From assembly GCF_000340215.1 (NCBI RefSeq), contig NW_006921538.1, forward strand, positions 1,054,001 to 1,118,000: a stretch of DNA of 64,000 nucleotides, given 5' to 3'. The notes beneath the pieces were generated by a model. That model was not told where the DNA came from and did not search any database. It worked only from the letters and a program-made list of their open reading frames with translations. This document shows positions 3,756-34,604 of this stretch, one piece after another. The stretch's first letter is position 1, and every line of letters begins with the position of its first letter. This stretch comes from Pseudocercospora fijiensis CIRAD86. Taxonomy: Eukaryota; Ascomycota; Dothideomycetes; Mycosphaerellales; Mycosphaerellaceae. The position numbers were made by a program, and so were the translations under genes.

Positions 3756-3886
3756 GGGTTCCCGCATCAGCCTGCTGTGTCCGCGAGATCGGGCGAAGCA
3801 TAGACATAGAGCCAAAAGCCATGCTTCTTGCGGCCGTGCTCGAGGCAAGTCAGAGCAAGATTTCGCTGTGCTGCTGATCTCCTACT

Positions 3887-4184
3887 TCATTCCTTCTTAT
3901 CTTCCTCTCCCACTCCGGCCGCCTCCGGCTTCAACCGATCTGCTGTCTGCTGATTCTGCTCTGCCTCTGCAAGTAAGGCTTCAATCTTGGCTTCCATGGC
4001 ATCTAGCTTCTTCTCCATCTCTGTCGCCGTCCGCTCGCCTTTCTGGAGTTCCTGCAGTGCCTAGGTATAGTCAGCTTGGATTCCGCGCTGGGTCCTGAGA
4101 TTCTACTGTACTCACCTTGGCCAGCTCTGCAGCTTCGTCGAAGCGCGTGCCTCCGGTCCCCAATGTGCTATTGTCTTCCGCCAT
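3887..4184 (-). CDS. Small two-exon coiled-coil protein (80 aa)
   Basis: Exon 1 is 4184-4116 (23 codons) and exon 2 is 4060-3887 (57 codons plus TGA). They are separated by a 55-bp intron (4115-4061) with GTGAGT donor, GCTGAC branch-like sequence and CTAG acceptor; the phase-0 join keeps the frame. The product begins MAEDNSTLGTGGTRFDEAAELAK and continues with a continuous helix (residues ~24-65) of strong heptad character, including EMEKKLDAMEAKIEALLAEAE. It ends in an acidic/basic tail. No signal peptide or membrane segment. Small coiled coils of this kind are often subunits of larger complexes, but I do not recognise the family. The gene converges with MRI1, the two stops being about 130 bp apart. 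Confidence 0.7.
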
Positions 4185-11317: not shown

Positions 11318-13184
11318 ATGTGGTCGTCGTGTAGTATACTCGCAGCAGCAGCTCTGCTGGCTGATCAAGCAGCCGCTCAAGTATCAGCAAATGCCCGCGC
11401 GACATACTACGCACCTGGCATTCCCACAGATGCACCAGTCCCGGGCAGCTACAATGACTACTTGCGGCCCAGAGTACACTTCACTCCGCCGCGATACTTC
11501 ATGAATGGCGAGCCAACATTCAGTACTGCCTGCGTGATGCTTCGCTGATGTTCCGTAGACCCCAATGGCCTGCACCGAGGCGCAGATGCATTATGGCATA
11601 TGTACTATCAGTACAATCCTTTGACACCCGTCGCGGGCAATCAGGTACGTGGTGCGGGTGCGCGCTGCATTTTCTCCGCGTCCTTCTCCAAACCTGACCC
11701 GCATGTTATTCTAGCACTGGGGCCACGCGACCTCCGAGGACCTCTATACGTGGGAGAACCAAAAGATCGCGCTCTGGCCGCCAAACAACTACACGTACGT
11801 CTTCTCCGGCAGCGCGGTGCTTGACCCAAACAATACCTCCGGCTTCTTCCCACACCAGGACAATGGAGTGGTCGCCATCTACACGCTCGCCGAGTATCCC
11901 GGGGGCGTGCAGGGTGTACAGTACCAAGCCATTGCCTACAGCCGAGACGATGGCTACACTTTCGAAGCATATGAGGCCAACCCAGTCCTGGACATCAACA
12001 GTACCCAGTTCCGCGATCCGTACGTCATCTGGCACGAGCCCTCCGCCCAGTGGGTCATGACCGTTGCGTATGCTGCAGAGTTTGTCATTGCCATCTTCAC
12101 GTCTCCAGATCTCAAGCAATGGACTCACGCCTCCAATTTCACCAAACATGGCCACCTCGGCGTGCAGTATGAATGTCCGAATCTTCTGCAGATGCCCATG
12201 CGTGGCCAAGAAGAGCCAATCTGGCTCCTGCTCATCAGCATGAACCCAGGAGGACCTCGTGGCGGTAGCGTCTCGCAGTACTTCCCCGGCCACTTCAACG
12301 GCACCCATTTCGAGCCATTCGACGATGCTGCCCGATTCACAGACTTCGGCAAAGACAACTACGCAGCCCAATTCTTCCATGGTGTCCCAGCCAATGAGCC
12401 GCAGATTGCGCTTGGCTGGGCTTCAAACTGGGAATATACCCAGCTCGTGCCCACAGGCTTGCTAGAGCACGGCCAATTCCGTTCCGCCATGACAGTCCCA
12501 CGAGCCCACACAATCGCCAACATTTCGGCTCGTGGCTACGACCTCATCTCCGAAATCCACAACATCTCCGCTGTCGTCGACTCGGAGCTAGCATACAACT
12601 CATCTCTCGGCAACGGCACAATCATGACCTACTTCGGCCACGTAGACTCAGGGGCCATCTACTTCGAAACCAACATCACGAACCTCACCTCATCCACTCG
12701 CCAAGGAACAGCAAATTTCACAATCTCCTCTTCCCTCTCTGGCGAATACATCCAAGGCGGAATAAAAGTCGCCGGAGAACCTGGAATCTGGATCGATCGA
12801 GGCCATATCCGTGGCTTCGACAACCCGTACTTTTCCGACAAGTTCTCCGAGGAAGGCACTTTTGTCCCGGCTACCGCATCTTGGGACATGAGTGTTGTCG
12901 TTGATCGGTCCATTATTGAGATCTTCTTGAATGGCGCCCAAGCTGCCGGCACCTTGACATTCTTCCCAACCGCACCGCTTGACACCTTGGCGATATATGT
13001 CGGCGGCATCGATGAGACGGCCAGTAGCTCCGTCGCTGTCTGGGCTTTGAGGGATACTTGGGCGGGCCAAGCGAATGCCAATGGGACTGTGGTGGGTAAC
13101 GTTACGCAACTTGACGTGAGACAAGTGCGCTTGACCACGCTAAACGCGGAGTTGACCATCGATATAGGGATCCGTAGACGCTAA
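11318..13184 (+). CDS. Secreted GH32 beta-fructofuranosidase (invertase)
   Basis: Three exons: 11318-11507, 11559-11644 and 11715-13184, giving 581 residues. Intron 1 is a GC-AG intron (GCGAGC...CGTAG) that splits the codon of the nucleophile. Intron 2 is GT-AG (70 bp). Signal peptide at residues 1-21 ([21 protein letters not shown]). GH32 landmarks: FMNDPNG with nucleophile about D64, FRDPYV with transition-state stabiliser about D193, and YECPNL with acid/base about E245. A C-terminal beta-sandwich ends near VWALRDTW. Many NxS/T glycosylation sites fit an extracellular enzyme hydrolysing sucrose. The final ~18 residues and the stop at 13182 lie inside the terminal inverted repeat of the adjacent mobile island, so the C-terminus is probably chimeric. 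The catalytic domains are complete. Confidence 0.93.
13106..13123 (+). repeat. Left flanking direct repeat (possible target duplication)
   Basis: GCAACTTGACGTGAGACA, within the invertase coding sequence 7 bp outside the left inverted repeat. It matches 16 of 18 bases of 44,974-44,991 in the same orientation outside the right inverted repeat. Confidence 0.5.
13131..13161 (+). repeat. Left terminal inverted repeat
   Basis: Begins TTGACCACGCTAAACGCG and ends GTTGACCATCG. It matches the reverse complement of 44,929-44,959 at 29 of 31 positions. It contains two direct TTGACCA copies on either side of a short CGCTAAA(A/C)GCG inverted core. It also encodes part of the present C-terminus of the invertase. 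Confidence 0.85.
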
Positions 13185-13377
13185 AGCGGGTGCGTCCCGT
13201 ACGCGAAAGTTTCATTACGCTAGGATCTTCTATTACGCTAAGCGTTGCGCGATATCTATACGCGTATCTTTGCGCGTATACTCTCTTCCTTTCTTTCTAT
13301 AATATACTACTAGTACGTATCTACCCTTAGCCCCTACCCCTATTCCTTTATATATACCTATGTACATATGCGACGAG

Positions 13378-14760
13378 CTAATAAGGCGACTTCGATGTCG
13401 CAGCTAACCGAGTTCCCCTATACTACTATACCTAAGCCTATAGCTCTGTATATACCTCCTAACATACTATAAGATATTAAGACCGTTGCCTAGAACAACA
13501 CCCTACTAGAGCAATCTGTAAGTATAGAGACTAGGGTATATATCTGCCTATACTTATGCCTATATAGAGCTCCTACCGCAAATATAAGAAGCGCCTCTTA
13601 TAAGGCGAGTTATTTAACATACCTAAGATAGAAATCGTAGTATGTAATCTCTCTTCTACCTATGCAATAAGCTAAACTAATGCCTATAGATCTGCCTAAA
13701 GACTAACTAGGAGGCCGTACGCACCTATATAGGTAAGGTAACTTGTCGTATGCCGGCAGGATCTAAGAACTTCGGTCGCTTCCTAGCTACCTAGAAGAAT
13801 CGCGATAGGTATATGCAGTGTTATGCCTATATTACTAGTTATTGCTAACACTATAATAGAAAAGACGAAGACGAAGAGACACTAAAGGAGTTGTACGAAG
13901 AGAAGGGCTTCTATAGTGTATAACTCTGTCTTTGCCTATACGTATACCTAAAGCTAACACCTTATAGACTATCTACCGCGACACTTCGGCTCTCGCTATA
14001 TATATCATCTATAGTATACGTAGCTCCCTACCTAGAGCTTTACCTATACTAACGCATATATAGTACAAGGGAAAAGTCGAGCAGCCTAAGGAGAAGGACC
14101 GTAGTAGTCGGTATACGCCTAAGACTAAGACAAAAAAGTGCATTAGTAGGTTTAGGCAGCTCTATAGGCAAAGCTTTTTACTAATATATCCCTTAGATTT
14201 CTTCGATAATGCCTAGGATCTGTACGAGGTCAAGTATAGCTATATCTTTACCCTTACCTTTGCCTATACTAATCCGTATACAGCCCCGACGCCCTAGGTA
14301 TACCGAGCAAGGGCAAAGCTAAGGGCAAAGCACCGGCCAAATCTGCCGAGACAATCGAAGACTTAGAGACTAAGTCTAAGTCTGAGTCTAAGAGTAATAG
14401 CGAGGTGTATATGCCGATCTATGCCTATACCGCTAGTTATATACTAACTTAAATAGGCCCTTCGTCGTCCGGCGCAGCAAGCACGGTAAGGTATAAATGG
14501 TTACGTACATACCTTTGCCTATACTAACGCCTATATAGATTGATCTAACTAAGGCTAACCGCGAGTTCCGTGCCGAGTTCCCCGAGGCTATAGTGCCTTG
14601 CCTAGGTTGCTAGGCTAAGAAGGCCAAGAAGAGTAAGTCTAGAGCTTTGGCTATAGCAATGCCTATACTAACGCCTATAACAGACTATAACCTTAGTGCC
14701 GATACCTGCAACTATACTAAGAACTACAACGTCGTTATCCTTATAGGATAAGGGCATAGA
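13378..14760 (+). pseudogene. Relic gene A (unknown transposon-associated protein)
   Basis: Starts near the ATG at 13,378 and can be followed through about eight short exons with several TAG/TAA stops. Exon pieces include SSYRKYKKRLL (about 13,568), ICLKTN..AVRTYIGKVTCRMP (about 13,690-13,755), a charged KDEDEETLKELYEEKGF stretch, and a C-terminal part with VPCLGC and DTCNYT that may be a cysteine pair cluster. Five introns end in nearly the same sequence, CCTATACTAACGCCTATA-type plus TAG. It is collinear with relic gene B at 27.88-29.56 kb, so it was a true gene that was duplicated and then degraded. Family not recognised. Confidence 0.55.
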
Positions 14761-16249
14761 TATAGGCATAGGCACGGGCATAGGATGAATATAGGATAAT
14801 TATTGCCTATATAGGCACGTATATAAGTATAGAACTAGCTACTAGTTGAAAGCCCCGGCTATAGTTAGACTTGAAATCTAACTATAGCCAAATCTTCTCC
14901 GCACTCGTAACTTCCTATATACGCCGTACTATAGCTATAGGTCGCCCTTTACAATATCGTAACTACTTTCGAGGCTTCTAGAGTCTAACAAAGGTAGCTT
15001 AACTAAAAAACAAGGGGGATAACGAAAGGCTAGCGGTTATATCCTAAGAATAATATAAGCTATACTAGTACTAATAAGTACTAACAGCTAGAAACTAACA
15101 ATAATTATATATATACTAGGATTTATAGGTAGTAGAAGCTACAGTTTAGACGAATTAGTATAGAAAGTTTGAAATAATAGGGGCTATATTAGTAAAGTTA
15201 CCTAGATCAAAATAATTAAAACTAGTATATAGCGGGTAGGTCCTTTTTAGTATAGATACCTAGAATTTTATAACTGCTAGTTTTAGTCTAAAAGACATAG
15301 AGATACCGATCGATATTATACTATAGCGTTACTAGTAGGCTGGTTTTTTATATAGGACAGATGCTACTACTAGTACTATACCTATTCTCTAGTCTTTAGC
15401 TATAGCAGTAGGGCGTTATTATCCCCTACTGTTAATGGAATAAAGGTATAGTCTTTAAAAAGTAGGTTTAGGTATTCTTTTTAAGTCAGCTATATACTAG
15501 CGCTAGTACGTATCTTATAATGCCCTAAGGCCTATATACTGTTCTATCGAATACGTTATACATATTGAATCACACAAACGTACAGAAGTAGTAGTACTCT
15601 AGTTTAATACTACCCTATTTTGATTTTTATATATATATATATATATATATACTACCGTATAGGCCTATATACCGACTAACTAATATTAAACTATATCTTA
15701 ATCTCTAGCGTAGCCTAGTATCGGGTCTCGTATTACTCGGGAGATAATACGCTACTTACCCGCTTTCCGGCTAATAGTACTATTCTATCGGGTATAGTCT
15801 ACGGATCTACTAGTAACCCGCTTTTTTAGTTTAGTATACTAAGGTCGGCGAGGTATGTTTCTAACTAGTATCGAATTGCTCTAATACTATGCTATACTTT
15901 TAACGTAGCAAGCTAGATATATAGCTAATCGTATAGATATAGGTGCTTTAGCTAGGTATTACCTACCCGCTCGCCTATACTAAATAGGACAGTATAGGCT
16001 ATAACCTAGAGATAATCGGCTTTCTATACTAGTAGGCCGGGAAGGGTAATAGTACTTATATCTACTACTTTAAAGTCGGTAGCAATCGCACTACTACTAG
16101 TGCCTATTTCGATTTTACAGGTTAGTTTAATAACAAGGATTTGCTACTCGATCGTATATATCTAGAAGACTAGTTTGTATACCTGCTATACGATCTAATT
16201 CTAGCTAATACTAAGGTCGCCGACTATATTATATTTCCGAATTGTAGTA
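14761..16249. other. AT-rich RIP-degraded DNA, no recognisable gene
   Basis: TpA-rich with frequent stops in all frames. It includes a (TA)n run near 15,630-15,652. No terminal repeats or domains recognised. Confidence 0.6.
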
Positions 16250-16856
16250 TATTAGACTAGGACGCTAGTAAGGCTCGTGCTATTACTATAGTCCGCGGCG
16301 CAGACGAGTAGCATATCGATAGTATCTAGAGAAGCACGTTTTACTATAACCAAAATATTCAGCTACCGCCAACTAGGCAACCCTAAGCAGTACCATAAAC
16401 GTTTACTATAGTCGGCCTAAGATAGTATCATATACTATCGCAGGTTAGCGTACTAGCATTGCTATACCCTATAGTAGGTCGGGTTAGTTTGGTTTAGTTT
16501 ACTAAGCCAAAATTCTAGGTTAGTTTAAGTTAGTTTGCTAAGCAACTATACGAGTAGCAGGTTAGAACTATAGAATTAGTCGGTTTCTAACAAGTATAGG
16601 AATATATACGTAACTTAAAGCAAGCCCTTTTTAAGACTAGTACTAATAGAATTTTCGAAGACTTTTATTTCGGACGTCTAATAAAGCATAATATACTATA
16701 TATATACTTAGAGAGTATTTATCGCGCGCTATATAGCGCCGTATAATAGCGGCATATTTTGTATATAGAAACGCTTATAGAGGATACTAAGAATATCTAT
16801 CCTACTAGAATATCTATCCTACCTACTACTATCTCGAATTTAGATATTCTAACCCT

Positions 16857-16935
16857 TAAGAATCTAATCTAGGGCTTTAAAATCCTTACCTATAGTCGTA
16901 ACGCGATTCACGTAGATAGCTATAAGGACAATAGC
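16857..16935 (-). pseudogene. Histone-H3-like C-terminal relic (left arm, type II)
   Basis: The minus strand reads AIYVNRVTTIGKDFKALD then a stop. This parallels the H3 C-terminal AIHAKRVTIMPKD segment with the histidine codon changed to tyrosine, as a CpA-to-TpA change gives. It is the mirror image of the C-terminal part of the relic at 21,382-22,010. Upstream exons are missing in this arm. Confidence 0.55.
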
Positions 16936-18787
16936 TAAAATAGTATTAGTATGGTTCCAAAAGAGGTAGTAAAATTTAGTAGGAAATTCTACCTAGATAT
17001 CTTCCGCAGTTACTACTTTAATAGTAATAATACTACTATATATAGTCTAACTATCTAGTATAAAGACCCGGCTAGAGGTACTAGCTACAGTAATCTTATA
17101 AGTAACCTAACTCTATTACTAGGAAATATAATAAATATCTATACTACGGTAGGCTATACTAAATAAGTTAGCTATTTAGTAGGAATAGGCCTACTACCGT
17201 CTCTATATACCGGCTCCGAGTGCCGACTATGCCTCTAGATTTAACTCCCCCCTATCTCGAAGGCTAAGGTACCGAGTAGAACCCCTGTACCTTATGTCTG
17301 CTCGGTTGTCGCGGAGCGCTTATAAGTAAGATATTAAAAAAGTATATAAAATATACGAGAAGAGCATCCCAGGATATAGGTCGTTAGTAAATAATAGTAG
17401 TACGCCTAGTTATTTATATAGTACGTTACTCTAAACGACTATGAGCCTATATTATCTCGTACTTCGCTTATAAGACTATATTATATACGACCGGGTAAGT
17501 ATAGTAGGGAGGTAGAGGTAGTATCTTAGGACGAGGCTTCTATATATCTTAGAATCTCTTATACGGGCTATACGTTCTTCTTCGTTAGACTCGTAGGTAG
17601 AGTCGTCGCTAGACTCTACTAACTTGTGCTATCGATCTCCTCCCTAGTTATCCTAGCTATACGAGTAGCGGTAAGCGATAATACCTAGATCGTATAACGA
17701 TCTCTCCCCTTCTTTAGTTATATATACTTCTACTTCTTAGTATAGTTAAACTACGAATACTATTAAGGCAAGCCGGGATATAGCAAGAAACTAGTCTAAA
17801 TATAGCTCGTCTCCGTAATAATCGAGTAAACATAAGGCGCTAGGTTTCTACTTCGTACCTTATATCTAGGTATAACGCGGGAATAAAACTAGGAGTATAG
17901 CCGGTATATATAGCTAGTAAAAGGATGCGAAAGTGTGCCTCGTCCTAGGTTAATGTAGCGGCTAAATACAAATCCTAATTAATCCGCTATAAACCGACGC
18001 CGAATCTTAGCTAGAAGCTATATATTTTTATATTAAAGAGCAACCCGCTTCGTATAGATAGTAAGGAGGTTAGAAAGCTTAAACTCGGTTATAAGAAATA
18101 TCTAGGGTTGCGTTAGTCTACTTTACCCCTCGCCTACGTTCGGGGATTTAAACTATACGTAAAGTCGCACTTTCTTAGTAGGCTATACGTAAAAGTCGAC
18201 GATAGCACTATTATAGAGTAAATATAATGGGAAACTGGATATAAGTGCGATAAGAGATAAGAAACGGTAGATTTCCGCTATATTAGTAGCTAGTAAATTG
18301 CGACTAAGGACCTTAATCCGGCCTCTTAGCAAAACTCTAGTCTACTATATAATCGATTACTTTATATATCGGCCTGTATATCTATTATGTAATCTACTAC
18401 CCTCTCCGCCCTCTCTACCTTAGTTAACCGCTTGGTGCGTACCCTCTTTATATTTTCGCCCTTTTTACGCCCTATACCGAGTTTTCTGTACTCTTTGTAT
18501 ACTAGAAAGAAAGAATACGAAGAATACGCGCCTTAGAATAAGGTAGACTGGCTTGCTAAGGATTATACAAGAAAACGGCGGTAGTAAAGTCTGTGGCTGT
18601 AATATGCTCGGATAAGGCTGTATGTGTAATATTTAGACTCGCGGTTCCTTACTATACCTACCTAGATATCCGAATAGGACTAGAATATACGATTATATCG
18701 AGGTTTACGTATAGCCTACTAAGAAAGTGCGATTCTATATATAGTTGAAATCCCCGCGACTACGGGATAAAGTATAACTAACGAAAC

Positions 18788-18986
18788 CCCGGATACCTTC
18801 GTAGCTTTCGAGAGATTACTAATCGCTATAGCCGTAAATTATATACTAGACTTAAAATCTAATATAATTACTTAGACGAGTCGCTAGAAGGGAGTTATAG
18901 AGATTAAAAGCTCGGTCTACCTTTTATCTTAGAATAGCCGGATCTCGCGAAGGGTAATAGTATCCGGTCTAAGGCGCCGCTTTTTT
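18788..18986 (-). pseudogene. Histone-H3-like relic (left arm, type I)
   Basis: The minus strand reads KKRRLRPDTITLREIRLF, then after stops TELLIS and a PF.RLV segment, then LDF and AIS.L. This follows the order of H3 alpha-N and alpha-1 regions (RPGTVALREIRRYQ, TELLIRKLPFQRLVRE). It breaks off at about 18,788 in the middle of the alpha-2 region, where unrelated AT-rich sequence begins. Stops are TAG/TAA at positions where glutamine or arginine codons would be expected, as RIP produces. Mirror copy of 19,762-20,076. Confidence 0.75.
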
Positions 18987-19324
18987 ATCGTCTAAACCTA
19001 CCTTTTACCCTTTTTTATAGAAGAATAGCTTTTCTTCGTAATAGTCTTCGTCTGTCTACCTTTTTAGCTACTCTATCCTTCTTATATCTACCTAAAGTAT
19101 TCTTATTTCGTAGTACTGTTTTCCGAGTAACCCCCTTCCCTTATATATACTATATATAGTATTCCTCTTCCGATATTTCGTTCTCGCTACGGTCTTCCTA
19201 TACTTAGCTTACTTTACTCGTACTCTATTCTAAGTTCTAAAGGTATCTTTATATACGTTCGGGCGACGAAGGTATATCGCTAAGACCTAGAAAAATTAAT
19301 AAGCCTATAAATGTAAAGAGATAT

Positions 19325-19434
19325 TTATACTTCTGATACTCTAGACTAAATAGTCTTCTATTAAACCGTCCTAGTCGGTTATCGTTAGATTCGTAATTAG
19401 GATAGTCCGTATCCTTACTAGGAAGTGTTATAGA
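19325..19434. other. Spacer at centre of palindrome
   Basis: About 110 bp between the inverted arms, not self-complementary. As single-stranded DNA it would be the loop of a hairpin with arms of several kilobases. Confidence 0.6.
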
Positions 19435-19761
19435 ATATCTCTTTACGATTATAGGCTTATTAATTTTCTAGGTTCTAGCGATATACCTTCGTCGTCTAAG
19501 CGCATATAAAGATACCTTTAGAGCCTAAAGGGCAAGGGTAAAGCAAGCTAAGTATAGGGAGACCGTAGCGAGAACGAGATATCGGAAGAGTAAGACTCTC
19601 CGTAGTATATATAAGGGAAGGGGGTTCCTCGGAAAACAGTACTAAAAAAACAAGAAGGCCTTAGATAGATAAGAGAAGGCTAAAAGGAGTAGGTATACGA
19701 AGACTATCGTAAAGAAAAGTTATTCTTCTATTAAAAAAAGGGTATAAGGTAGGACTCGATA

Positions 19762-20076
19762 ATAAAGAAGTAGTACTTTAAACTAGGTACTATTACCCTT
19801 CGCTAGATCCGGCTATTCTAAGACAAAAGAGGGACCGAGTTTTTAATCCCTAAGACTCTCTTCTAGCGACTCGTCCGAGAAATTATATTAGATTTTTAGT
19901 CTAGTATACGATTTACGGCTAAGGCGATTAATGCTCTTTAGGAAGCTACGGAGGCATTTCTTATAACCGAATTTAAGCTTTATAACCTCCTTGCTATTTA
20001 TACGAAGCGGGGTACTCTTTAATATAAAGATATATAGCTTCTAGCTGAAATTCGGCGTCGGTTTATAGCGGATTAG
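19762..20076 (+). pseudogene. Histone-H3-like relic (right arm, type I)
   Basis: One plus-strand frame with no indels, interrupted by seven or more TAG/TAA codons, reads as a histone H3 fold. In order: FKLGTITLR.IRLF, TEFLIPKTLF.RLVREI, LDF.SSIRFTAKAINAL, EATEAFLITEF, LLAIYTKRGTL, YKDI.LLAEIRRR. This corresponds to the H3 segments GTVALREIRRY, TELLIRKLPFQRLVREI, RFQSSAVMALQEACEAYLV, CAIHAKRVTI and PKDIQLARRIRG. A basic tail with GVPRKTVLKKQ lies upstream in another frame. Nearly every stop falls at a conserved Q, R or K position, consistent with CpA-to-TpA damage. It is nearer H3/CenH3 than any other histone, but which variant cannot be decided. Confidence 0.85.
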
Positions 20077-20354
20077 TTAGACTTTGTATTTAGTCGTTAG
20101 ATTAACCTAGGAGGAGGCCTATTTTCGCATCCTTTTACTAGCTATATATACCGGCTATACTCCTAGTTTTATTCCCGCGTTATACCTAGATATAAGGTAC
20201 GAAGTAGAAACCTAGCGCCCTATATTTACTCGGCTATTATAGAGACGAGCTATATTTAAATTGGTTTCTTCGTATATCGCGACCGAGTAGATAGTTAGCG
20301 AAAGGGCGATAGAACGTTTATAATACGTCTCTATTTAGACCTAAAATACAAAGG

Positions 20355-20665
20355 TCCTAAGGAGCCCTAATATACTAACTATAAAGAGATTCTTTAGTAT
20401 TAGCACTTTAATCCTCTATACTACGAGGCAGATAGTAAGCCTACGAGAGAGAAATTTTAATAAGAGATTCTCTATAATACGTAGCGCTATTATATAGCGA
20501 CAGATACGTACTAAGTCCGGCAACTCGAAGAAGAATTAAGATAGCGACTAAGGAAGATTTAAGAGATCGATAGTATACTAGTAGAGTCGAGGTCTTATAA
20601 GCGAAGTACGAGATAATATAGGCTCTAGGTCGTATAGAGTAACGTACTATATAAATAACTAGGCG
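20355..20665 (+). pseudogene. Relic of a coiled-coil protein downstream of the H3-like relic
   Basis: A plus-strand frame with TAA/TAG stops contains HFNPLYYEADSKPTREKF and VRQLEEEL followed by a charged heptad-like stretch. It is unrecognised. It lies between the two H3-like relics and is mirrored in the left arm, so it probably belonged to the same repeated unit. Confidence 0.35.
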
Positions 20666-21381
20666 TGCGACTCTTATTTACTTACGACCTATATCCTAGG
20701 ATACTCTTCTTATACTTTTTATACTCTTTTCTAATACCTTACCTATAAGCGCTCCGCGATAACCGATTAAATATAAGCTATAGGGTTTCCGCTCGGTACC
20801 TTAGCCTCCGAGATAGGGCGGAGTTAAATTTAGAGCGATAGCCGGCACTCGTAGCCGGCATACAGAGATGGTAGTAGGCCTTTTCCTACTAAATAACTAG
20901 CTTGTTTAGTATAGCCTACCTAACATTTCTCATATTTCCTAGTAATAGGCCTAGGTTATTTATAAGATTACTGTAGCTAGTAAGGGAATTACTAAAGAAT
21001 ATCTATACTATAGTAGGATACTATTATTACGCCGAGTGTTTGTTAAAAGGAGGCTTTTGCCTATTACTATACCGGCTATATATACCGGCTATATTTCAAA
21101 GTTTGCCGCACCTGCCTTTTTTAGCCGTATCTAACTTCTTTTCTTGCTCTAACGTTACTATAATATAGGCTTGCGCGACGCTTACTCTATTACCTAGCGA
21201 TACCGCGATACTACCTCTCTCGCTATATTTAACCTTCGTATCGATACCTATATCTCTACGCTCTATATCCACTACCTCCGTACTAATATCCTCGCTCCGC
21301 GCGCGCCTTCGTATACCTTCGTAACGTACTTTCTTTATTAATTCGACGACTTTTGTAATACCGAGTCTACTTAACTAAGTT

Positions 21382-22010
21382 ATAACGACTCGTACGAAGG
21401 GACCTACTACTTCTACGGATTATAATAAGACCGGAAGTAGTAGAACGAGTATAGTATATTAACGCAAGAAGGCTACTACTACTACCGCTAGCTCTAGCAC
21501 TAGAAAGAGCGTCGCGAGTAAGGCTCCGCGTAAGACGACGGCAGATAAGGCTCTAGGCAAGACGACGACTAGCGCTTCTACTACTAGTAGCAATAATCGT
21601 ACGAAGCGTCGATAGCGCCTAGGAAGTAAGTCCTATCTATAGCCGGTAGCGTAGCCGGTAGCGTAGCCGGCATTCTTACTATTCTTTTACTAATCCTTCT
21701 TTAGCCGTAGCCCTTCGTTAGATTCGGATATATTAGAAGGATACTAAACTCCTAATCCGTAAAGCTCCTTTCTAACGACTTATTCGTAAAATTGCCTAGT
21801 ATATTATATAGGACCTTCGCTTCTAAGCCTCTATAATAGATACCCTTTAAGAGGCTTTAGAAGCCTACCTTATTTGTATCTACGAATATATATTTCTCTT
21901 CTACCTCTTTTCGAACTATACTAATACTATTTTAGCTATTGTCCTTATAGCTATCTACGCGAAGCGTATTACGATTATAGATAAGATTTTAAAGCCCTCA
22001 ATTAGATTCT
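21382..22010 (+). pseudogene. Spliced histone-H3-like relic with long N-terminal tail (type II)
   Basis: A probable start codon at 21,382 has become ATA. A basic tail follows with ASKAPRKTTADKALGKTT, ending in TKRR.RLG. An 85-bp intron (21,626-21,710; GTAAGT, TTACTAATCC, CGTAG) contains three AGCCGGTAGCGT units. Splicing restores GT-LR.IR.Y, KDTKLLIRKAPF, RLIRKIA, DLRF.ASIIDTL and EALEAYLI, which match H3 alpha-N, alpha-1 and alpha-2 in order and spacing. After a possible second intron the frame gives AIYAKRITI, the H3 alpha-3 entry segment with histidine replaced by tyrosine. All stops are TAG/TAA. The tail differs from canonical H3, as in CenH3-type variants, but the class is uncertain. Confidence 0.8.
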
Positions 22011-23460
22011 AAAAGGCTAGAATGTCTATATTCGAAATAGTACTACTAGGTAGGATAGATATTATAGTAGGAAGAATAGATATTATAGTAGGAAGAATGT
22101 TCTTAGTGTTATCTATAATCGTTTTCTATATACGAAATAAGCCGCTGTTATACGGCGCTCTAAGTATATATATATATATATATATAATATATATATAGTA
22201 TAGTATACTTTATTAGCCGTACGGAATAGAAGTCGTTAAAAATCCCGTTAGTACTAAGGAGTAAAAACGCCGGCTACGCTACCGGCTACGCTAATAGCTA
22301 CGCTACTAGGTCTTTTAAAGAACTAGAAGAAGATAGATATTTTAGTTAATTTGTATTAGTTTATATTTTTATAAAAAGAAAATAGGGAAAAAGAAGGAAG
22401 GTTAAAGAGCCTAATACTTATAGTTATAGGCATTATCCCTGTTTTCTAGACTATATTATATACCTGCCTTCGCAACTCTACCTAATACTTACTCTAAATA
22501 TCCTTATACTCTACCTACTAGAAATTTAACTAGATACCTAGACCTATAGCTGCCTCTATATCTTTTACTATCTTCTATAGGTTAAAGGACTCCTCTATAG
22601 CAGCCTCTATATCCTTATATAATACGAAGTTACTACCTACCCTACCCTTTATATCTACTAAATAACTAAGAGTTCTAAGGAACGAACTAGCATTCGGCCT
22701 TAGTATAGCGAGTAACTAGTAGAACGTAGTATAGAGCTATTTTATAGCTCTTTTATATACTATACCGATACCGAGGGAAGAGCTATCCTATTACTTAATA
22801 TTAGAGAATAGTTTAGTAGGAAAGTGTTAGAACTTCTTAAAGAGGGCTTCTAGGGAAATCGATAAGTTCTACCTAGATATAGATAATAATATTCTACCGA
22901 GTAGTTAGGGAATCAAATAGCGAGCGAAAGGATGAAATTTATACCTAATAAGTGTAGTTTCTAAACTAAACTATAATAGCTTATATATATATATGCTCTT
23001 AATTAGTTAGTGCCCTTAGCTAATTATCTATAGATTTAGGGTTATATAAGTACCTTCCTATAACTAAAAAATGCCGGCTACGCTGCCGGCTATACTCTCG
23101 TGTCTTATAAAGGGCTTGCTTCGAGTTACGTATATATTCTTATACTTCTTAGAAACCGATAAATTCTGTAGTTCGAACCAGCTACTCCTATAGTTGCTTA
23201 GCAAACTAACCTAAACCAAACTAGATCTTTAGCTTAGCAAACTAAACTAAACTAAACTAACCCGAACTACTACGGGGTCTAGTCTCGACTCGTACGAGTT
23301 CTATACTACTTTAGGTACCGCTACCTAGCTTCCCTATTTTTTATAGTATCCCGTTATACTTCTTAGTAGATATAATATATAGTTTTCGTCCCCGTTGTAA
23401 TTATACCGTAGTTAACTAAAGCTAAGGCGAATAACGCCGTAGGCCTAGAGCTAGTACTCC

Positions 23461-26400
23461 TACACCAAAAGGGCACACAAGGCTATAGTTATTACTAAGT
23501 ATATTATCTCTACGAATACAAAACTAAAGAGCTTACTTACGAGTCGGGCAGAATCGAGTATAACAACGCTTACTAACGATAATAACAGTCATCTTCGGCC
23601 ACTTCTCCTTACTACCGTAGAGCTTCGTAAAGGCCTTTTCGAAAGACGGTAGTTCTATCTATAGGACTAGTTTATACTAGCCTTCCGAGACGCTATTCCG
23701 GTAAATAATAACTTTGTTTAGTAGAGAGCTATTCTTCTTATACTACAAATTTAGACGCTTAATTACCGTTTCTTCGAGCCTATTAGCTATTTCTTAGCGG
23801 CTATCCTATATACAGATCGAGCCTAGCTATTAGAGTACATACTTATTAACGCTAGTAATAAGCGTAGCTATTAATAGCGTACCTTCGAGGAGCCTAGCGA
23901 CGGGTAGGTAATATTAATACTAAATAGTAGTATTATCTCGTTATTAAGCAGTTTACTACTAAAGGCATTTAGTATATAGTACGCTACGCTACTACCCTTT
24001 ACGTTAAACTTAAGTACTAGATTACTAATATATATGCCCTATCTAATAGGCTTCTAAAGCTTCGATCCTAGAGAGTAGATAGTATATATACTAAATTTAA
24101 TATTACTAAATTATTTAATACGAGCGTATAACTACTTATCGGCTTCCGGAATAAATACAATGAGGAACCTAATACCTATACTCTCCTAGGCCGCTATCGC
24201 GAAGATATTAGTATTATATGACGTAGCGAGCGGTTACTAAAGTCGCGATTCTATATAGTAGTAAGGGTCTCTAGTAAGATTTCCTACGTAGGCTTAATAC
24301 GCTAGCCTATACTAATACTATATAACTTTATATACTTTTTAACTCTATTAATCAAGTTTTAAGATTACCTAGGTCCCTATATAGCGTATTGCCTCGATTG
24401 CCTTTACGGTTAATAATTAGAAACGACTACCTATTAGATTTTCTAGGTCTAGTAAACTTAACGCCCTATAAGTTCTAGGAGCCCTTCTACGGCGTAATAG
24501 GTTTCGAATTCGAACTATAGCTTACGTAAAGAGTATCTAGGATATAGTCGGATACTATAATTATACTAGGACCTACCGAGAAGCTAAATAGCCTTATAGA
24601 AGTTAACTAAGGATTACTATTAGGATTAGTAAGACGGAAGAGTTATATACTATTCCTAAGTCTAGTACCGGGAGTTCTAGTAACAGATATAGCGTTAAGA
24701 TTTAAAAATCTAGCTACGAATTTAAGTATCTTAGAAGTCTAGTTGCTACTAAGTAGGCGTCGACAAGGCTAGCTAGGACGGACTATATATAACTTTATAG
24801 GCAGATATTAGTAATTAGCGCACGTACCGACGTTAAGTACTAGACGATCTAGGTACCTACTAGTAAGGGCAATTCCGTAGTACTAACGGAAGTAATTATT
24901 AACCGTAATCTATCGTAGTATAGTATTTATAGGGTCGATAAAGCAGAATATAACCCAGTTAGTATTACTTAAACGCTAGACCTAATTCTTGTCGGCGACC
25001 TTCGTAAAGCCGATAACAGTCCTAATCTTAACTCTAATTAGCTCTTACTAGCTATCTTTTATATCGGCGGTATCGACCTTTAATATATAAAAGAAAGCTT
25101 TAAGCTAGTTAAGATTACTAGTACGCGCGTTAGCCTAAAGCTAAAGTAGAAGTCTAGGTTAGTAAAAGGCACTAGCGGTAACGTTTAAATTAACTAGTAG
25201 ACGCCGGTTAACTACTAGGCGAATAGAGGAGTAGTAGCCTCGTAGTACTTATAGCCTCCGCCTAAATCGGAAAGCTCCTTCCTAGATAGCTATAGTATAG
25301 ATAGAATTTGTTTTAGCCTACGTTATAAACGGTATTAGTCTCGTCTAGCGCCCTAGTTTAGACGATGTTTATAAGTAGTAGTATAATTTAGAGTATTAGG
25401 TAGTTTAAATATTTCTTTAAATATTCTCCTATTCTTTTCTAATATTATACTAAAACTATCGTCTAGGCCCGTCGTAGTACTATAAGCTTAATAAGAGAGT
25501 AAATTAGGCTATAAAATTAAAACAATTCTAGGACATCCTATTAAGTAGTCTTCTATTACTAAAATTTACCCTTATCTTCCTAACGGGTAGATAAAGTATT
25601 ATTTGTTTATATATATTAGTAGATACTAAGATAATATTAACAGAAACTACTATATCGTTACTACTAGACAACTTAGTCCTAAATAAAATTAATATATAGA
25701 TCGAAGACGTACCTCGAATCTAGCGCGAATCTAACGCCGCTTTCTATCTAGAAAGTAAAACACGTTTAATTAAATTTCTCGGCGGTCTCTTAATATAACC
25801 TAATAAAAAGTATATCGTTAGAACCGCGCAATCTTATTCTATCTAACACAAAACTTTCGTATAGGTCGAGAACGTATCTCGAATCTAAGACGAATCTAAC
25901 GCTGCCTTTCTAATCGGAAAGCGGTATACGTTATTTAGATATCTAGGCGGTCTCTAGATATATTTTAGTTAAAAGTACCTAGTTCGAACCGCGTAATAAG
26001 GTTCTATATTCTAACTAGCTCGATACTATCGTACTACGAGCGGATATTATACTACTTGTAATTAATATTAGCTACGTTAAATACTACGAAAGGGTCTAAG
26101 GGAGGTACTTAGGTTATTGCCTCGCCCCTCCTAGTACCTAGACATATATAGCAAACCGGGCCTATAGTCTCTAAAAATAGGGGACGTTAGGCTATTCCCT
26201 ATACCCTAGGAACTCGCTTAGCTAAACTTAATTTTTCGGATTTTATATATTATAAGTTAAAACCGTCGGTATTATATATAATTATTATTAATATATTGTC
26301 TTCTAGACGCGGTAAGGTATAATAGTACCCGCTAAATTCGGATTTACGTATTTCGAGGTATAGTTGTTGCTTATTATTATAGTATCGTAGTATTATCGTT

Positions 26401-27879
26401 AGTCTTACTAGTATACGTTAGAATTCTCGGTTAGTCCTATAGAGTATCTATACTAATAGTTGCCTATATAGCGATAGCACAATAAGGAACCTAGATATAC
26501 TCTAAATTACCTTACTCCCTATACTTTATACTGTGAGAATTCGAATAGTATTAATAAAGGCCTACTATAGGCGGAAGAGAGGGTTCTAAGAGGGGATTCT
26601 TCCCCCTAGTATAGCGCTAGGACTTGTTACTAGAATACAGACACCCTTATTAACCTAGTATAATATACTATTCCTATATTATTCTAATAGAGGTGCTATT
26701 ATAGTGCGCTATATACTATAGTATAAATTATAAGTAGACTCTTCTAACTACTAAGTATAGCTATATATACTACGATAGGTTATACTACCTATAGAACCTT
26801 ATACTATTATAGCTAATAGTAGTAGTAGTAGTAGTAGGAGTATTAGCCTCCGCTTAGTACTACCTACTAGAAATCTAATTTACTAGTAACATTTAATTTG
26901 CTATATAGGCCTCTAACCGTATACTAATTATATAGGTTAACCTACTATTTGTCGAGATATAGTTAATACTATAAGGAGCTATAACTAGCTAGCAATAGTT
27001 AATACCTAAATAGTAACTACTCGCCTATCGGATTAAGTATATACGTTATATTCGCGTTAGACTTTGCGATACTCGTTAAATATTATTATAAATCTAAGCG
27101 TTTATAGAGGCAAAATATGTAGCTAGAACTAGGCAATAGTTCAGATTAATATACTATTAGTCGAGGTATAGCTCAATTTAATTTACTATATAGTATTGTG
27201 TTTGGTCTAGTAGCTGTTAGTATACTAGGTATCTGTCTTGGATCTTAGGTAGATAAAATATTTAGAAGGTTATAATTGTAACTCTTAAGCCTATAGGTAG
27301 CCTATATAGACTAGAATAGTCCTTAGGTTGCCTTGTATTCTCCTATACAGAAACCCTTTTTCTTCGGGCCTAGAGGCTAGTAGATAAAGCTTAGGTCCCT
27401 TCGTATTGGAATACTAGTTATACTCCTAGTGCTTATTTAATAGGTTTTAAGTTACTGTCTGTAAGATACTACTAGTATTCCTATAAAGTCGTCTGGTAAT
27501 GTGCTAGCTCTACGTTCTTTGGTACTCCTAATAGTATAAGGTTTTATTCTATTTTTATAATAGACTATTACTAGTATATATTAGTAGGATAACGAGTCGA
27601 AGGCTAATTACAAGCATACGAAGATATACCTAGTATATTAGTTTAAGTATTATATATAACGAGATTATAGTAGAGTACTCTATTAGGGTCGAATAAGACA
27701 TACTAAGTGTATGCGCAGACACATGGCTATACGTTTGCGCATATCGGATCGGGAGACCGGCAATCCCGGATACGAAGATTCTATTATACTAGGATTATAT
27801 ATTACGCTAAGTAAGGATATGATATCTTTGCGCTTTTCTATGCGCTCGAACCCTCTTCTTCTTTCTCTACTATAAACTA
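23461..27879. other. AT-rich RIP-degraded DNA, no recognisable gene
   Basis: Stops in all frames. A stretch at about 24,100-24,420 (plus strand) still has protein-like runs such as NKYNEEPNTYTLLGRYRED, but I do not recognise it. A ~163-bp tandem duplication lies at about 25,698-26,020 and an (AGT)n microsatellite at about 26,819-26,841. Confidence 0.55.
25698..26020 (+). repeat. 163-bp diverged tandem duplication
   Basis: Two units starting ATAGATCGAAGACGTACC (25,698) and ATAGGTCGAGAACGTATC (25,861), each ending near a TTCGAACC-like or equivalent GAACCGCG stretch. Differences are mostly transitions. Confidence 0.6.
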
Positions 27880-29560
27880 CTCGTACGTATTAGACCCAGA
27901 GCCCTCTGTATATACCTATGCGTATTCCTAATCCGCTTAGTACTAGAATCAATTCTAGTGTTTATATATACATCCGCACAAAGCTATACGTATAGCAGTC
28001 GACTATACCGTAGGACATTAAGGGCTGCGTATTCCCGAGCTCGCTCGTTAACGGTAGCGTAAGTACATTCCTATAGCTATACGTCGCTATATACTAATAC
28101 GCAAACAGAGCAGCTACCGCAAGTACAAAAAGCGTCTGCTTAGTAGCGAGCTAGTCCCTCTACTAATTCTAGATGTCGTCGTAAGCATTCTTCTGCCCTT
28201 ACCTATCTATATACTTATATATACAGACATGCCTAAAGAAGAAAGTGCCCGCTGTTCGCCTTTTTATAGGTAAGGTCGTTTGTCGTATGCCGGCTAGTGC
28301 TAAAAACTAGAGTCGATTTATCGACGCTACGGAGGATAACGGGTATAGTTATACTATTGCGCATATCTATATATAGCACTAATCTCTATAGTAATAAGAG
28401 TTTGGAGGATATATACGACGAGGAGGGTATATATTATATATAACCTAGCCTTCGCGCATACCTATATATTCTACTAATACTTACGTAGATAATATGCCGC
28501 GATATAAGAACACTCGCGACGCATATTTAGTACGGGGTATATATTGTCCCCGAATAGATCTGCTTATACTTATGCCTTTATAGTATAGCGGCGTCGTCGA
28601 AGAGGGACGTAAGGAAGATAGCAAGCGGGATACCGGCGGTCGCTATACCCCGGAAGACAAGTTGAAGCGCTATATAGGTATAGCTATACCTATACATTTG
28701 CCTATTAATTCCTATTAACGAGCCTTAGAATTCTACGACCGCCTCTAGGAGATATACGAGGACGAGGCGCGAGAGTATACGTAAGTCTACGATTATAGAT
28801 ATGCGCATTCTAACACCTATCTAGTAAGGGTCCCTCTAAGGCGACCTCGAAGAAGGCCGATATAGGTAGCGACGAGACTAGCGACGAGGGTAGCGACGAG
28901 ACTAGCGACGAGGCTAGCGACGCGGCTAGCGACTAGACTAAGAACGAGGCTAAGAGCGAGGCTAAGAACGAGGCTAAAAGCAAGGCTAAGAACGAGGCTA
29001 AAAACAAGGCTAAGAACGAGGCGAAAAGTAAGGCTACCGATATAGCTACCGATAAGCCCTCTACTAAAGGTCCTAAGACCCCGACCGTAGTTATTAAGTC
29101 GTCTACGGAGGACGAGGACGAGGACGAGGAAATGGATTCTAGGTCTAAGCAAGGGTATATGCTTAGATATAGTTATAGAGACTTGTCGCCGCTAACATAT
29201 ATAGCAAATTCGAGCTTATACTTGCCTCGAAGTCTAGTAGGGTAAGCATAAGGCTGGCCTTATCTATGCTTATACTAATGCGCGTAGGTTAATAGGACGC
29301 TTACAAACAACGACTTCAAAAGGCGCTTCCCTAATATAGCCGTACCCTGCAATACTTATAAGGCCGCCGGTGCGAAGACGAGTATGCCTATCTATCCGTT
29401 TTAGTCTGTTAGTATACTAACGGATGTATAGACTGCAAATAGGGTAACTATACCTGCGAGAATATAAAGGCATACGTACTCTAATCTATAGCTATACCTA
29501 CGCGTATAGACAAGAGTACCGTAGGGCTCGTACCGGGGAGAGGGATTCGTTAGAGAATTA
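27880..29560 (+). pseudogene. Relic gene B (paralogue of relic gene A)
   Basis: Collinear with gene A: upstream TTACGCTAAG...TTTGCGC motif, DIKGCVF, an intron, SSYRKYKKRLLSSEL (28,097 on), an intron, LKKKVPAVRLFIGKVVCRMP, NKSLEDIYDEEG, GGRYTPEDKLKRY, and VPCNTYKAAGAK with a further cysteine motif near 29,430. A low-complexity acidic/lysine region (28,850-29,150) is built from (A/T)SDE and KNEAKSKA repeats, longer than in gene A. Fewer stops than A. It lacks the terminal inverted repeat that precedes A. Function unknown. Confidence 0.55.
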
Positions 29561-30137
29561 GATAGCTATGCGCATACAACCGGTTATAGCTATAGCTCGC
29601 GCGTTAATTTAGCTTTGCGCTAGCTAATGTTTGGCTTGGCGGCGGTAAGAGTATATAGATTGATATCCTATAGCGTTTAGTATACAGTGATTTATATACA
29701 AACCTATGCGCCGACCTATACGTATAGCGAAGTTTACACTACTACTTATAGTACAGCTCGTATATAGAGGCATAGCTAACGTTATACCATTTTCCGCAAC
29801 TTCTTTAATCGCTAAGACGTACTTTAGCTAGCGTCGACCGAGCTAGCGGCGGGTAGCGGGAGTTTTATACATACGGCTATCGCTATGCTTATACGTCTAG
29901 CTATAGCTCTGTTTACTCGATACCCTCTCGAACGACGCGATAGCAGGCAGCTAAGATGTATTAGCATAACTATAGACATATCTACGCCTATAACTCTGCT
30001 TACCTAGCAGACGGCTATTGCCGGGGCGCTAGCCCCTTTACCGAACGAACAGAAGGAGCGCTATATGTTTAGCTAATGTCTCGCGTATATCTACGCATAA
30101 ATGATGCTCTAGATCTACGTATCTTTGCTATTTCTTT

Positions 30138-33100
30138 AATATACAAAGTATATAGTTTAAGTTATATTCCTATATAGTAGAATACCCTATGCTATTTTTT
30201 ATTAATTCCTATTTATATATATTAATAATACTCTATACTATTATAATTTGCGTTGTTACTATCTCTCTCTCTCTCTAAATTTTCTCGTTATATATATATT
30301 AATAGAAATATAATCTCTACTACTATTATTCTAGTTACTGCCCCTCTCCTAGTATACGAATGTCTTTAGGTATACGCAAAGGCAACACTGTAGCTATGCA
30401 TCCGTTCCTCCGTTTTAGTAATAAAGGCTTAGTATTATTTTATATTAGTATAAGACTATTACGCTAGTGTAATATAAAGTAAATAGTTTAACTTGTTTAC
30501 CTATATAGCAGAAGACCCTATATATATATAGCTAAAAAGATCTTTTTATTTTTTTTTAGATTTATACTTATTAATAATACTCTATACTATTACAATTTGC
30601 GTTGTTACTATATCTCTCTCCCTCTAAATTTTCTCGTTATATATATTAATAGAAATATAATCTCTACTACTATTATTCTAGTTACTGCCCCTCTCTTAGC
30701 ATACAGATGCCTTCGGGTATGCGCAAAGGCAACGCTATAGCTATGCATCCGTTCCTCCGTTTTAGTAATATAATTATTATAGTTAAAGCTTAGTTTTGTC
30801 CTACTTTATTATCCCTTTACGCATACCTATGCACTAGCGATTAGGCACTCCCTATTCTATGCGAGATACAACATAGGTATGCACATATCTCACGCTATAG
30901 ATATGCGCCCATTCTTCCGTTTTAGTAATAAAGGCTTAGTATTATTTTATATTAGTATAAGATTATTACGCTAGTGTAATATAAAGTAAATAGTTTAACT
31001 TGTTTACCTATATAGCAGAAGACCCTATATATATATAGCTAAAAAGATCTTTTTATTTTTCTTTAGATTTATACTTATTAATAATACTCTATACTATTAC
31101 AATTTGCGTTGTTACTATATCTCTCTCCCTCTAAATTTTCTCGTTATATATATTAATAGAAATATAATCTCTACTACTTTTATTCTAGTTACTGCCCCTC
31201 TCTTAGCATATAGATGCCTTCGGGTATGCGCAAAGGCAACGCTGTAGCTATGCATCCGTTCCTCCGTTTTAGTAATATAATTATTATAGTTAAAGCTTAG
31301 TTTTGTCCTACTTTATTATCCCTTTACGCATACCTATGCACTAGCGATTAGGCACTCCCTATTCTATGCGAGACACAATATAGGTATGCACATATCTCAC
31401 GCTATAGATATGCGCCTATTCTTCCGTTTTAGTAATAAAGGCTTAGTATTATTTTATATTAGTATAAGATTATTACGCTAGTGTAATATAAAGTAAATAG
31501 TTTAACTTGTTTACCTATATAGCAGAAGACCCTATATATATATAGCTAAAAAGATCTTTTTATTTTTCTTTAGATTTATACTTATTAATAATACTCTATA
31601 CTATTACAATTTGCGTTGTTACTATATCTCTCTCCCTCTAAATTTTCTCGTTATATATATTAATAGAAATATAATCTCTACTACTATTATTCTAGTTACT
31701 GCCCCTCTCTTAGTATACAGATGCCTTCGGGTATGCGTAAAGGCAACGCTGTAGCTATATATCCGTTCCTCCGTTTTAGTAATATAATTATTATAGTTAA
31801 AGCTTAGTTTTGTCCTACTTTATTATCCCTTTACGCATACCTATGCACTAGCGATTAGGCACTCCCTATTCTATACGAGACACAATATAGGTATACACAT
31901 ATCTCACGCTATAGATATGCGCCTATTCTTCCGTTTTAGTAATAAAGGCTTAGTATTATTTTATATTAGTATAAGATTATTACGCTAGTGTAATATAAAG
32001 TAAATAGTTTAACTTGTTTGCCTATATAGTAGAAGACCCTATATATATATATAGCTAAAAAGATCTTTTTATTTTTTTAGATTTATACTTATTAATAATA
32101 CTCTATAGCTATTATATTTTATGTTATTACAATATCGCTCTCTCTCTAAATTTTCTCGTTATATATATATTAATAGAGATATTATCTCTAATATAATTAT
32201 TATAGTTAAAGCTTAGTTTTATCCTACTTTATTATCCCTTTACGTATTATTGTATATAAGACACTACATAGGTATGCACATATCTCACGCTATAGATATG
32301 CGTCTGTTCTTCCGTTTTAGTAATAAAGGCTTAGTATTATTTTATATTAGTATAAGATTATTACGCTAGTGTAATATAAAGTAAATAGTTTAACTTGTTT
32401 ACCTATATAGTAGAAGACCCTATATATATATAGCTAAAAAGATCTTTTTATTTTTTTAGATCTATACTTATTAATAATACTCTATAGCTATTATATTTTA
32501 TGTTATTATAATATCGCTCTCTCTCTAAATTTTCTCGTTATATATATATTAATAGAAATATTATCTCTAATATAACTATTATAGTTAAAGCTTAGTTTTA
32601 TCCGACTTTATTATCCTATTACGTATTATTCTATATAAGATACTACATAGGTATGCACATATCTCACGCTATAGATATGCGTCTGTTCTTCCGTTTTAGT
32701 AATAAAGGCTTAGTATTATTTTATATTAGTATAAGATTATTACGCTAGTGTAATATAAAGTAAATAGTTTAACTTGTTTGCCTATATAGTAGAAGACCCT
32801 ATATATATATAGCTAAAAAGATCTTTTTATTTTTTTAGATCTATACTTATTAATAATACTCTATAGCTATTATATTTTATGTTATTACAATATCGCTCTC
32901 TCTCTAAATTTTCTCGTTATATATATATTAATAGAAATATTATCTCTAATATAACTATTATAGTTAAAGCTTAGTTTTATCCGACTTTATTATCCTGTTA
33001 CGTATTGTTCTGTGTAAGACACTACATAGGTATGCACATATCTCACGCTATAGATATGCGTTCGTTCTTCCGTTTTAGTAATAAAGGCTTAGTATTATTT

Positions 33101-33480
33101 TATATTAGTATAAGATTATTACGCTAGTGTAATATAAAGTAAATAGTTTAACTTGTTTGCCTATATAGTAGAAGACCCTATATATATATAGCTAAAAAGA
33201 TCTTTTTATTTTTTTAGATCTATACTTATTAATAATACTCTATAGCTATTACATTTTACGTTATTACGATATCGCTCTCTCTCTAAATTTTCTCGTTATA
33301 TATTAATACAAATATTACTTATCTCTACTACTATTATTCTAGTTACTACCTCTATTCTGTATACGGCTGCGTATAGGTATGCGCATACCTTACGCTTTAG
33401 GCATGCGCCTGCATTTCCTTTTAGTAATAAAGGCTTAATATTATTTCAATATTAGGGTAATTTTAGCCTAGTTTATCTAC
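30138..33480 (+). repeat. Satellite array: three 507-bp then three ~380-bp periods
   Basis: The landmark GCTAAAAAGATCTTTTTATT occurs at 30,531, 31,038, 31,545, 32,052, 32,433, 32,812 and 33,191. Spacings are therefore 507, 507, 507, 381, 379 and 379. The short units lack ~127 bp containing the CCCCTCTCTTAGCATA...CCTCCGTTTTAG segment. A diverged first copy begins near 30,138 and a diverged last copy ends near 33,480. Units are almost identical despite their RIP-like composition. Confidence 0.95.
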
Positions 33481-33790
33481 CCTTTGAATATATCTATGCG
33501 CTTACGATAAGGCTCTCCCTCGAGTTATGCCTATATATATGTGCTCGACTATGTCTATATACGTAATATATGCTAAAAAGATGTTAATACAACCTATATA
33601 TATAGCTATCTCCGACCCTCTCTTAACTAGCGAGCTATCTCGTCGTATACCTGTAGCTGCGCCCGTAGATACTCTGCCTATAAACTAGCGATCTCTGCTA
33701 GTATTAGCGGATATATTAAGGTAGGTTGTATAACCGGAGGCATTAAGGAAGGCATTGTCGCGGCTATTGGTATAGCTATTAGGGGCTATA

Positions 33791-34407: not shown

Positions 34408-34604
34408 TGTGAGAAGGGTATATTAGCAGGTAGATAGGGTGGTAGTGAATTAGTGTAGTATTCGATAGAGATCTAAGAGAAGAGGGAGGAAGGTAGGCAA
34501 GTTAGCCTAACGCTAAGCGCCAAGCCCTGCCTAAGGCATCGAGACCCTAGCTTCACTCGAGCCCGGTCATATGCTAATCATATATAACCTCTTTAGTCCT
34601 AATA
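34408..34604 (-). repeat. 3' LTR
   Basis: 197 bp, starting TGTGAGAAGGGTATAT on the plus strand. It differs from the other LTR at about 15 positions, all transitions and most in CpA/TpG context. Confidence 0.93.

Follow-up and report, generated by a model that had tools for sequence, protein, structure and literature searches.

The locus considered here raises the question of how two reading frames resembling histone H3, both broken by stop codons, came to lie on the plus strand of repetitive DNA in Pseudocercospora fijiensis CIRAD86, and whether their products ever served the element that carries them. The window is the whole stretch that was analysed, 64 000 nucleotides of contig NW_006921538.1, and all coordinates given without a copy name refer to it. 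An earlier note, made from the letters of this DNA, knew of no standard fungal transposon family encoding an H3 variant, and suggested either that such a protein marked or disguised the chromatin of the element or that the sequence was a captured centromeric H3 (CenH3). The premise proved mistaken, as hAT transposon families carrying H3-like genes are described in the available parts of PMC6710886 and PMC3538342; the amplification of H3 by a hAT transposon and its destruction by repeat-induced point mutation (RIP) is a matter of published record from 2013 to 2019. We hold it to be very probable that the window contains a copy of the H3-carrying hAT family of P. fijiensis, killed by RIP and rearranged.

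The accessible portions of Dhillon et al. (2019; PMC6710886) report 784 RIP-inactivated H3-like copies in P. fijiensis on a 9.5-9.9-kb hAT transposon; this has ends of 20 bp and duplications of 8 bp, and carries a DUF659 domain together with one H3-like copy or two. The original H3, of 411 nt and 136 amino acids, is placed there on scaffold 6 of a 74 Mb genome, the copies, transposase included, are described as broken by RIP through changes of CpA to TpA, and the capture of a transcript is argued from missing introns and from exon junctions. The figure of 784 copies is cited again in the available part of PMC13041039 (2026). Our results agree with these portions in genome size, in copy number, in the intact H3 on the sixth sequence, in the number of H3-like genes per element, in the ends and duplications, in the change of CpA to TpA and in the broken state of the copies; they differ in that the published copies are intronless and the published element has no direct or inverted repeats, and in that we read introns in one of the genes. 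Neither a palindromic derivative nor an Argonaute-bearing host repeat was found described in the same portions. In Pyrenophora tritici-repentis, the available sections of Manning et al. (2013; PMC3538342) describe a hAT element with a divergent H3-like gene (H3L), which has insertions in its tail and is neither H3 nor CenH3 by that paper's alignments; the elements measure 5.6 and 2.3 kb and have one H3L each, and there are 26 nearly identical copies, most of them intact, for which ESTs were found. According to the portions of PMC6710886 at hand, the hAT elements of the two fungi share no sequence similarity and the event was called independent. Nothing more on H3-carrying hAT elements appeared among the literature matches listed.

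The features of the locus are collected in Table 1. With stops read as X, the Pfam Histone profile (PF00125) matched both plus-strand frames above its cut-off, as the earlier note led one to expect, and the H3 order of helices that it had read in them was upheld by an 80-codon core that aligns to the host H3, gap-free for type II once its introns are removed and interrupted in type I by a single insertion of two codons. Compared with the host protein, type I has two additional residues after alpha-N and an altered C-terminus; 46 of 75 and 44 of 76 core residues are identical to host H3 in type I, and 52 of 76 and 41 of 73 in type II. The order alpha-N, alpha-1, a loop 1 of the same length, alpha-2, loop 2 and alpha-3 is that of a core histone H3, and both tails have the PRK motif; core H3, in contrast, is without the repeated GKAPRKTTA-like units of the type II tail. 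The number of these units varies in frame between copies and subfamilies (window 21382-21625, L009 and L026). The stops are almost only TAG and TAA, as noted before: the type I frame at 19,762-20,076 has seven TAG, two TAA and no TGA, and all three frames of 21,383-22,040, taken together, have 31 TAG, 22 TAA and no TGA. The 618 nt of the type I frame equal its length in the full copy L009, and the frame ends at a stop beyond which the two subfamilies introduced below, A and B, are no longer similar; one copy, L027, has a private 1-nt deletion inside the type I exon. The genes are indeed of two distinct types, and type II has the lysine-rich tail ascribed to it, with two introns in place of the one that had been reported.

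Table 1. Features of the H3-carrying element and its surroundings in the window.
Feature	Position	Strand	Evidence
Palindromic H3-carrying hAT element derivative, without transposase, both ends being the element's 'left' end	16463..23281	.	blastn of full element L009
Left terminal repeat, degenerate (TATACCCTATAGTAGGTCGG)	16463..16482	+	Comparison with TAGACCCCGCAGTGGTTCGG in full copies
Mirror remnant of type II, other arm	16857..16969	-	DNA evidence only; 16877-16969 88% complementary to 21901-21993
Mirror remnant of type I, other arm	18788..18986	-	PF00125 E 2.1e-5; phmmer with host H3 E 1.6e-10
Type I H3-like gene, intronless, RIP-killed	19483..20100	+	PF00125 (Histone) E 8.3e-16 for the frame at 19.6-20.15 kb, stops read as X
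Type II exon 1, tail with GKAPRKTTA-like units; 5' limit provisional	21382..21625	+	Translation
Type II intron 1 (GTAAGT ... CTAATCCTTCTTTAG)	21626..21704	+	One codon away from where host H3 has its intron 2
Type II exon 2, alpha-N to alpha-2	21705..21887	+	PF00125 E 3.1e-10 for the frame at 21.4-22.04 kb, stops read as X
Type II intron 2, 48 nt; 5' site RIP-changed to ATATAT, 3' end ACTAATACTATTTTAG	21888..21935	+	Copy comparison
Type II exon 3, loop 2 to alpha-3; 3' limit provisional	21936..22010	+	Translation
Right terminal repeat (TAGACCCCGTAGTAGTTCGG on minus strand)	23262..23281	-	Compared with full copies
RIP-killed Argonaute fragments, context and not part of the H3 element	23533..25254	-	Pfam
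Piwi piece 1	23533-23871	-	E 3.8e-13
Piwi piece 2	23928-24164	-	E 0.0053, below cut-off
ArgoL1	25162-25254	-	E 2.7e-8

A search of the genome (73.94 Mb, 30 contigs) with PF00125 gave 772 candidates, 150 of which were scored. Two of the rows listed were free of stops: the intact host H3 on contig 6, with three exons, 411 nt and 136 amino acids, and an open exon on contig 5, which we read as the host CenH3. Nineteen copy loci were fetched (L009-L027), of which 14 belong to subfamily A, with L009 as reference, and five to subfamily B. L009 spans about 9.9 kb including its right end and carries both H3 genes on the same strand, the approximate positions being 5.2-5.8 kb for type I and 2.9-3.6 kb for type II. 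Two copies have the terminal inverted repeat TAGACCCCGCAGTGGTTCGG at each end, and the other two (L009/L053 and L011/L055) have it in RIP-type variants; all four full copies examined at both ends have the 20-bp ends and perfect 8-bp target duplications (GTACTTTG, TACCTACC, ATTAAACT and ACTTGTCC). The note was right in placing the genes on a duplicated and RIP-killed mobile element. Pfam found no transposase above cut-off in the scanned parts of L009 and L010 and no transposase match at all in L010:720-4600; in L009, of which all but the last 1.5 kb was scanned, Dimer_Tnp_hAT appeared below cut-off (E 0.051), upstream of type I and on the same strand. Weak matches to SelB-wing_3 and MKLP1_Arf_bdg were taken as chance. 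No close intact relatives of the element genes stood out among the best 120 of 1121 matches for type I or the best 120 of 7934 for type II.

The copy in the window differs from this full form. In a blastn comparison, positions 1615-5976 were the only part of L009 to match the window, as 23281-19434 and a second time, inverted and in pieces, inside 16473-19406, while the transposase side of L009 had no match; the window copy is therefore a rearranged form, in which two left ends stand head to head, minus the transposase side. Its arms are 78-90% complementary in the main blocks, and the 8 bp outside its two ends differ, with no target duplication visible. The diverged mirror copies of the H3 genes, reported earlier at 18,788-18,986 and 16,857-16,935, are in this light the second arm of one palindrome and not separate genes. 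The former is recognizable as H3, although Pfam places the minus-strand mirror at 18.6-19.15 kb slightly below the cut-off (25.2 against 26.4 bits), and phmmer, run with host H3 over the entire window (E up to 1e-3), matched at three places only, namely type I, type II and this mirror. The latter is seen in DNA complementarity only, as the one frame tried of 16,857-16,935 on the minus strand gave no Pfam match.

For the centre of the window copy (19150-19700), nine matches cover the full 551 bases at 98-100% identity, the window's own place among them, one further match covers 542 bases at 94% and another 445 bases at 100%; with 40 of 382 candidates scored, these counts are lower bounds. In 11 of 14 end pieces, taken from seven other copies, similarity passes the ends of the element and continues into the flanks, two of the remaining pieces being without a match and one beginning inside the element. 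Because the matches run into the flanks, it was a larger repeat that was copied, and we set aside the possibility that the near-identical copies arose when the palindrome itself transposed following RIP. The window copy thus sits in a larger Argonaute-bearing repeat, itself copied. The left edge of this repeat lies at window position 13105/13106 in two fetched copies and at 13148 in a third, and on the right the copy on contig 9, one of the three fetched, keeps 97% identity as it enters a tandem array (30141-33520). The pieces from contigs 1 and 6 had no match in that interval, and these copies have therefore been cut short or rearranged. The array, with a unit near 507 bp, stands at the right side of the larger repeat. 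A 12-bp tandem repeat (TAGCGACGAGAC/TAAGAACGAGGC) lies inside the larger repeat at 28843-29022, and a direct repeat (34412-34602 and 41380-41570, 94% over 191 bp) lies outside the studied block.

A Piwi fragment stands at the same distance in seven of the 11 centre matches, the window included, and 11.9 kb away in an eighth. Eight of the 64 PF02171 matches in the genome bear the signature of this fragment, with the profile running from 97 to 206-212; examples in this assembly (G000) are C9:3890863, C2:2020121 and C10:2803617, and the repeat exceeds 17 kb. Some 35 other short matches to Piwi, covering profile positions of about 230-300, are spread over many contigs; each contains one or two TAG and no more than two TAA, and they are perhaps a second repeat family with a piece of an Argonaute-like gene. 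We do not claim that the H3 element split an Argonaute gene, because a search on its other side turned up no further part of Piwi. A histone borne by a virus or a giant transposon was discounted: Pfam (E up to 0.01) gave no domain other than Piwi and ArgoL1 in 23283-30140, and in 13106-16471 it had no match. The PDB sequence searches gave no Argonaute match, and no paper joining Argonaute and Pseudocercospora was among the literature matches listed.

The block of the H3 element has 170.5 TpA and 8.8 CpA per kb; in the leftmost 12 kb of the window, which are richer in GC, the values are 34.2 and 69.8. By the formula as quoted in the available part of PMC13041039, the RIP composite index comes to about +1.6 in the former and about -0.9 in the latter. 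In 7,320 gap-free columns of the 14 A copies, 519 are polymorphic for CpA/TpA or TpG/TpA, 158 show other transitions and 22 include transversions, and the RIP-type columns have a broad frequency spectrum. The scarcity of transversions and the breadth of this spectrum together indicate that the A copies are young by transversions and that RIP hit them individually. A further 664 columns are fixed for TpA, and an earlier layer of RIP common to the copies is possible.

The positions of the stops bear on the state of the genes when RIP reached them. In the 80-codon core of types I and II of L009 and L010, 16 of 20 stops fall at codons for Gln in the host, which make up only seven of the 80 (p 4e-14, a flattering value given that the four sequences are related and not fully independent); to judge from this placement, the frames plainly still spelled H3 there at the time RIP arrived. 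Indels fixed between the two subfamilies, counted by hand and defined by presence in four or more of the five B copies, with end gaps and private indels such as the 1-nt deletion of L027 excluded, are multiples of three in six of six cases within exons, compared with one of nine outside (p 0.0014), three of the six exon cases falling in the repetitive type II tail. Substitutions by codon position, counted only for changes between purine and pyrimidine, which RIP cannot make, gave no third-position excess between A and B, either for type I (13, 6 and 12; p 0.32) or for type II (15, 14 and 17; p 0.34), the type II core alone giving 7, 6 and 13 (p 0.056). In six pairs drawn from the host H3, type I and type II, the third-position share was 0.36-0.47 (p 0.03-0.39), weak at best, and on single branches it was 0.35-0.56 (p 0.014-0.52), the lowest p belonging to type I of L010, with 15 of 27 changes at third positions. 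The exons of type II have diverged at 51 of 480 sites and its introns at one of 126, which is not as purifying selection on the protein predicts; nor is this evidence of positive selection on type II, as fourfold sites (six of 76) and first and second positions (29 of 318) have changed about equally. We take it from the sequences that both frames most likely still read as protein genes at the onset of RIP.

The two putative introns of type II have consensus signals that persist across the copies. Intron 1 begins with GTAAGT in 18 of 19 copies and contains CTA[A/G]TCCTTCTTTAG in all 19. Intron 2 measures 48 nt and ends in CTAAT..TTTTAG in 19 of 19, beginning with GTATGT in four and with G-to-A variants of it in the other 15. 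Without the 48-nt stretch, type II of L009 reads FESVNLIAIYAKR against FEDTNLCAIHAKR in the host, gap-free, and three H3 entries of the protein search (P0183, P0208 and P0209) have what would be a read-through intron at the same site, as deduced from the proteins only. The available part of PMC6710886 describes the second H3 copy as having a 16-amino-acid insertion, which appears to be better read as this 48-nt intron. As it seems to have two introns, type II looks like a genomic and not a transcript-derived copy, and the published conclusion, in the portions at hand, that the copies are intronless and of transcript origin does not seem to hold for it.

Could either gene have been a CenH3? Measured from REI to ALQE, the loop 1 span is 23 in all four element sequences and in 16 of 16 H3 sequences and the host H3, compared with 26-32 in 18 of 18 CenH3; the element genes have the histone fold in common with CENP-A/Cse4 but the loop length of H3. 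The trees, whose rows were hand-picked from listed entries and include some CenH3 labelled by sequence and not by name, changed with their size. A first, small tree, in which two CenH3 rows only were present, joined type I with CenH3 (96/96), and type I does have the EAFLV and RVTL found in CenH3 rows; with 30 CenH3 and 20 H3 rows, however, types I and II stood together (97/94), under a long-branch warning, outside the CenH3 clade (97/85), and each alone also fell outside it (92/99 for type I and 100/99 for type II). AU tests did not reject a placement with CenH3 (p 0.17 and 0.48 for type I, 0.47 for type II). Against such an origin, the host CenH3 also reads through the GTVALR site, near which both the host H3 and type II have an intron. 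The element genes look like H3 rather than CenH3, with which the larger trees agree, and on the length of loop 1 and these trees we set aside the capture of a CenH3 as very improbable, the one tree in its favour having held two CenH3 rows.

The genes may have been idle freight. The published view, as given in the available portions of PMC6710886, is that a hAT element on one occasion took up an H3 transcript, which travelled along with it and was killed by RIP without ever serving it, and we would give this an even chance. The argument from missing introns and exon junctions made there fits the intronless type I, and neither the codon positions, which bear no sign of purifying selection between the subfamilies, nor the greater divergence of type II exons than introns demands a use for the proteins. 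The two intron-like stretches of type II, one of them at a place apparently occupied by an intron in other H3 genes, fit it poorly, however, as do the keeping of the frames over two diverged subfamilies, with every fixed exon indel a multiple of three, and the 41-52 of 73-76 core residues that both genes still share with host H3.

A further reading is that hAT elements of Dothideomycetes keep a divergent H3 as a working gene to their own benefit. The stops at host Gln codons, the frame-keeping indels, the presence of two H3 genes per element and the third-position changes in type I of L010 are all consistent with such a use; the missing third-position excess between subfamilies and the excess of exon over intron divergence in type II are not, and the event in Pyrenophora is called independent in the available text of PMC6710886. 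We consider it rather unlikely, and H3 products that served the element are a minority reading of these data. It is a guess that they acted in the chromatin of the element, for example by forming nucleosomes more resistant to silencing. The wider proposal that hAT transposons of Dothideomycetes, repeatedly or since long ago, carried a working, divergent H3 nucleosome variant, in this family two to an element and one of them retaining introns of the H3 type, that helped them, for instance against silencing, until RIP destroyed it, is an unlikely one on present evidence.

In our preferred explanation, that of an RIP-killed and rearranged copy of the P. fijiensis family, an ancestral hAT element would have taken up H3 sequence, type II probably deriving from an intron-containing gene. 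The full form carries two H3-derived genes on one strand downstream of the transposase, type I intronless and type II with two introns. The element spread to hundreds of places, and RIP turned CpA into TpA in the copies, creating stops in both H3 genes; in the window copy, two left ends are joined inside a larger repeat that was itself copied.

The intron reading, the evidence against CenH3 and the palindromic derivative go beyond the published account, as far as its available portions extend. If the intron reading holds, the published inference of transcript capture would be in error as regards the second gene, and each of the H3 genes may have a history of its own. Should transposons of this kind retain a divergent H3 in two orders of fungi, it would become testable in P. 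tritici-repentis, whose copies are reported to be intact, whether mobile elements can supply a nucleosome variant themselves.
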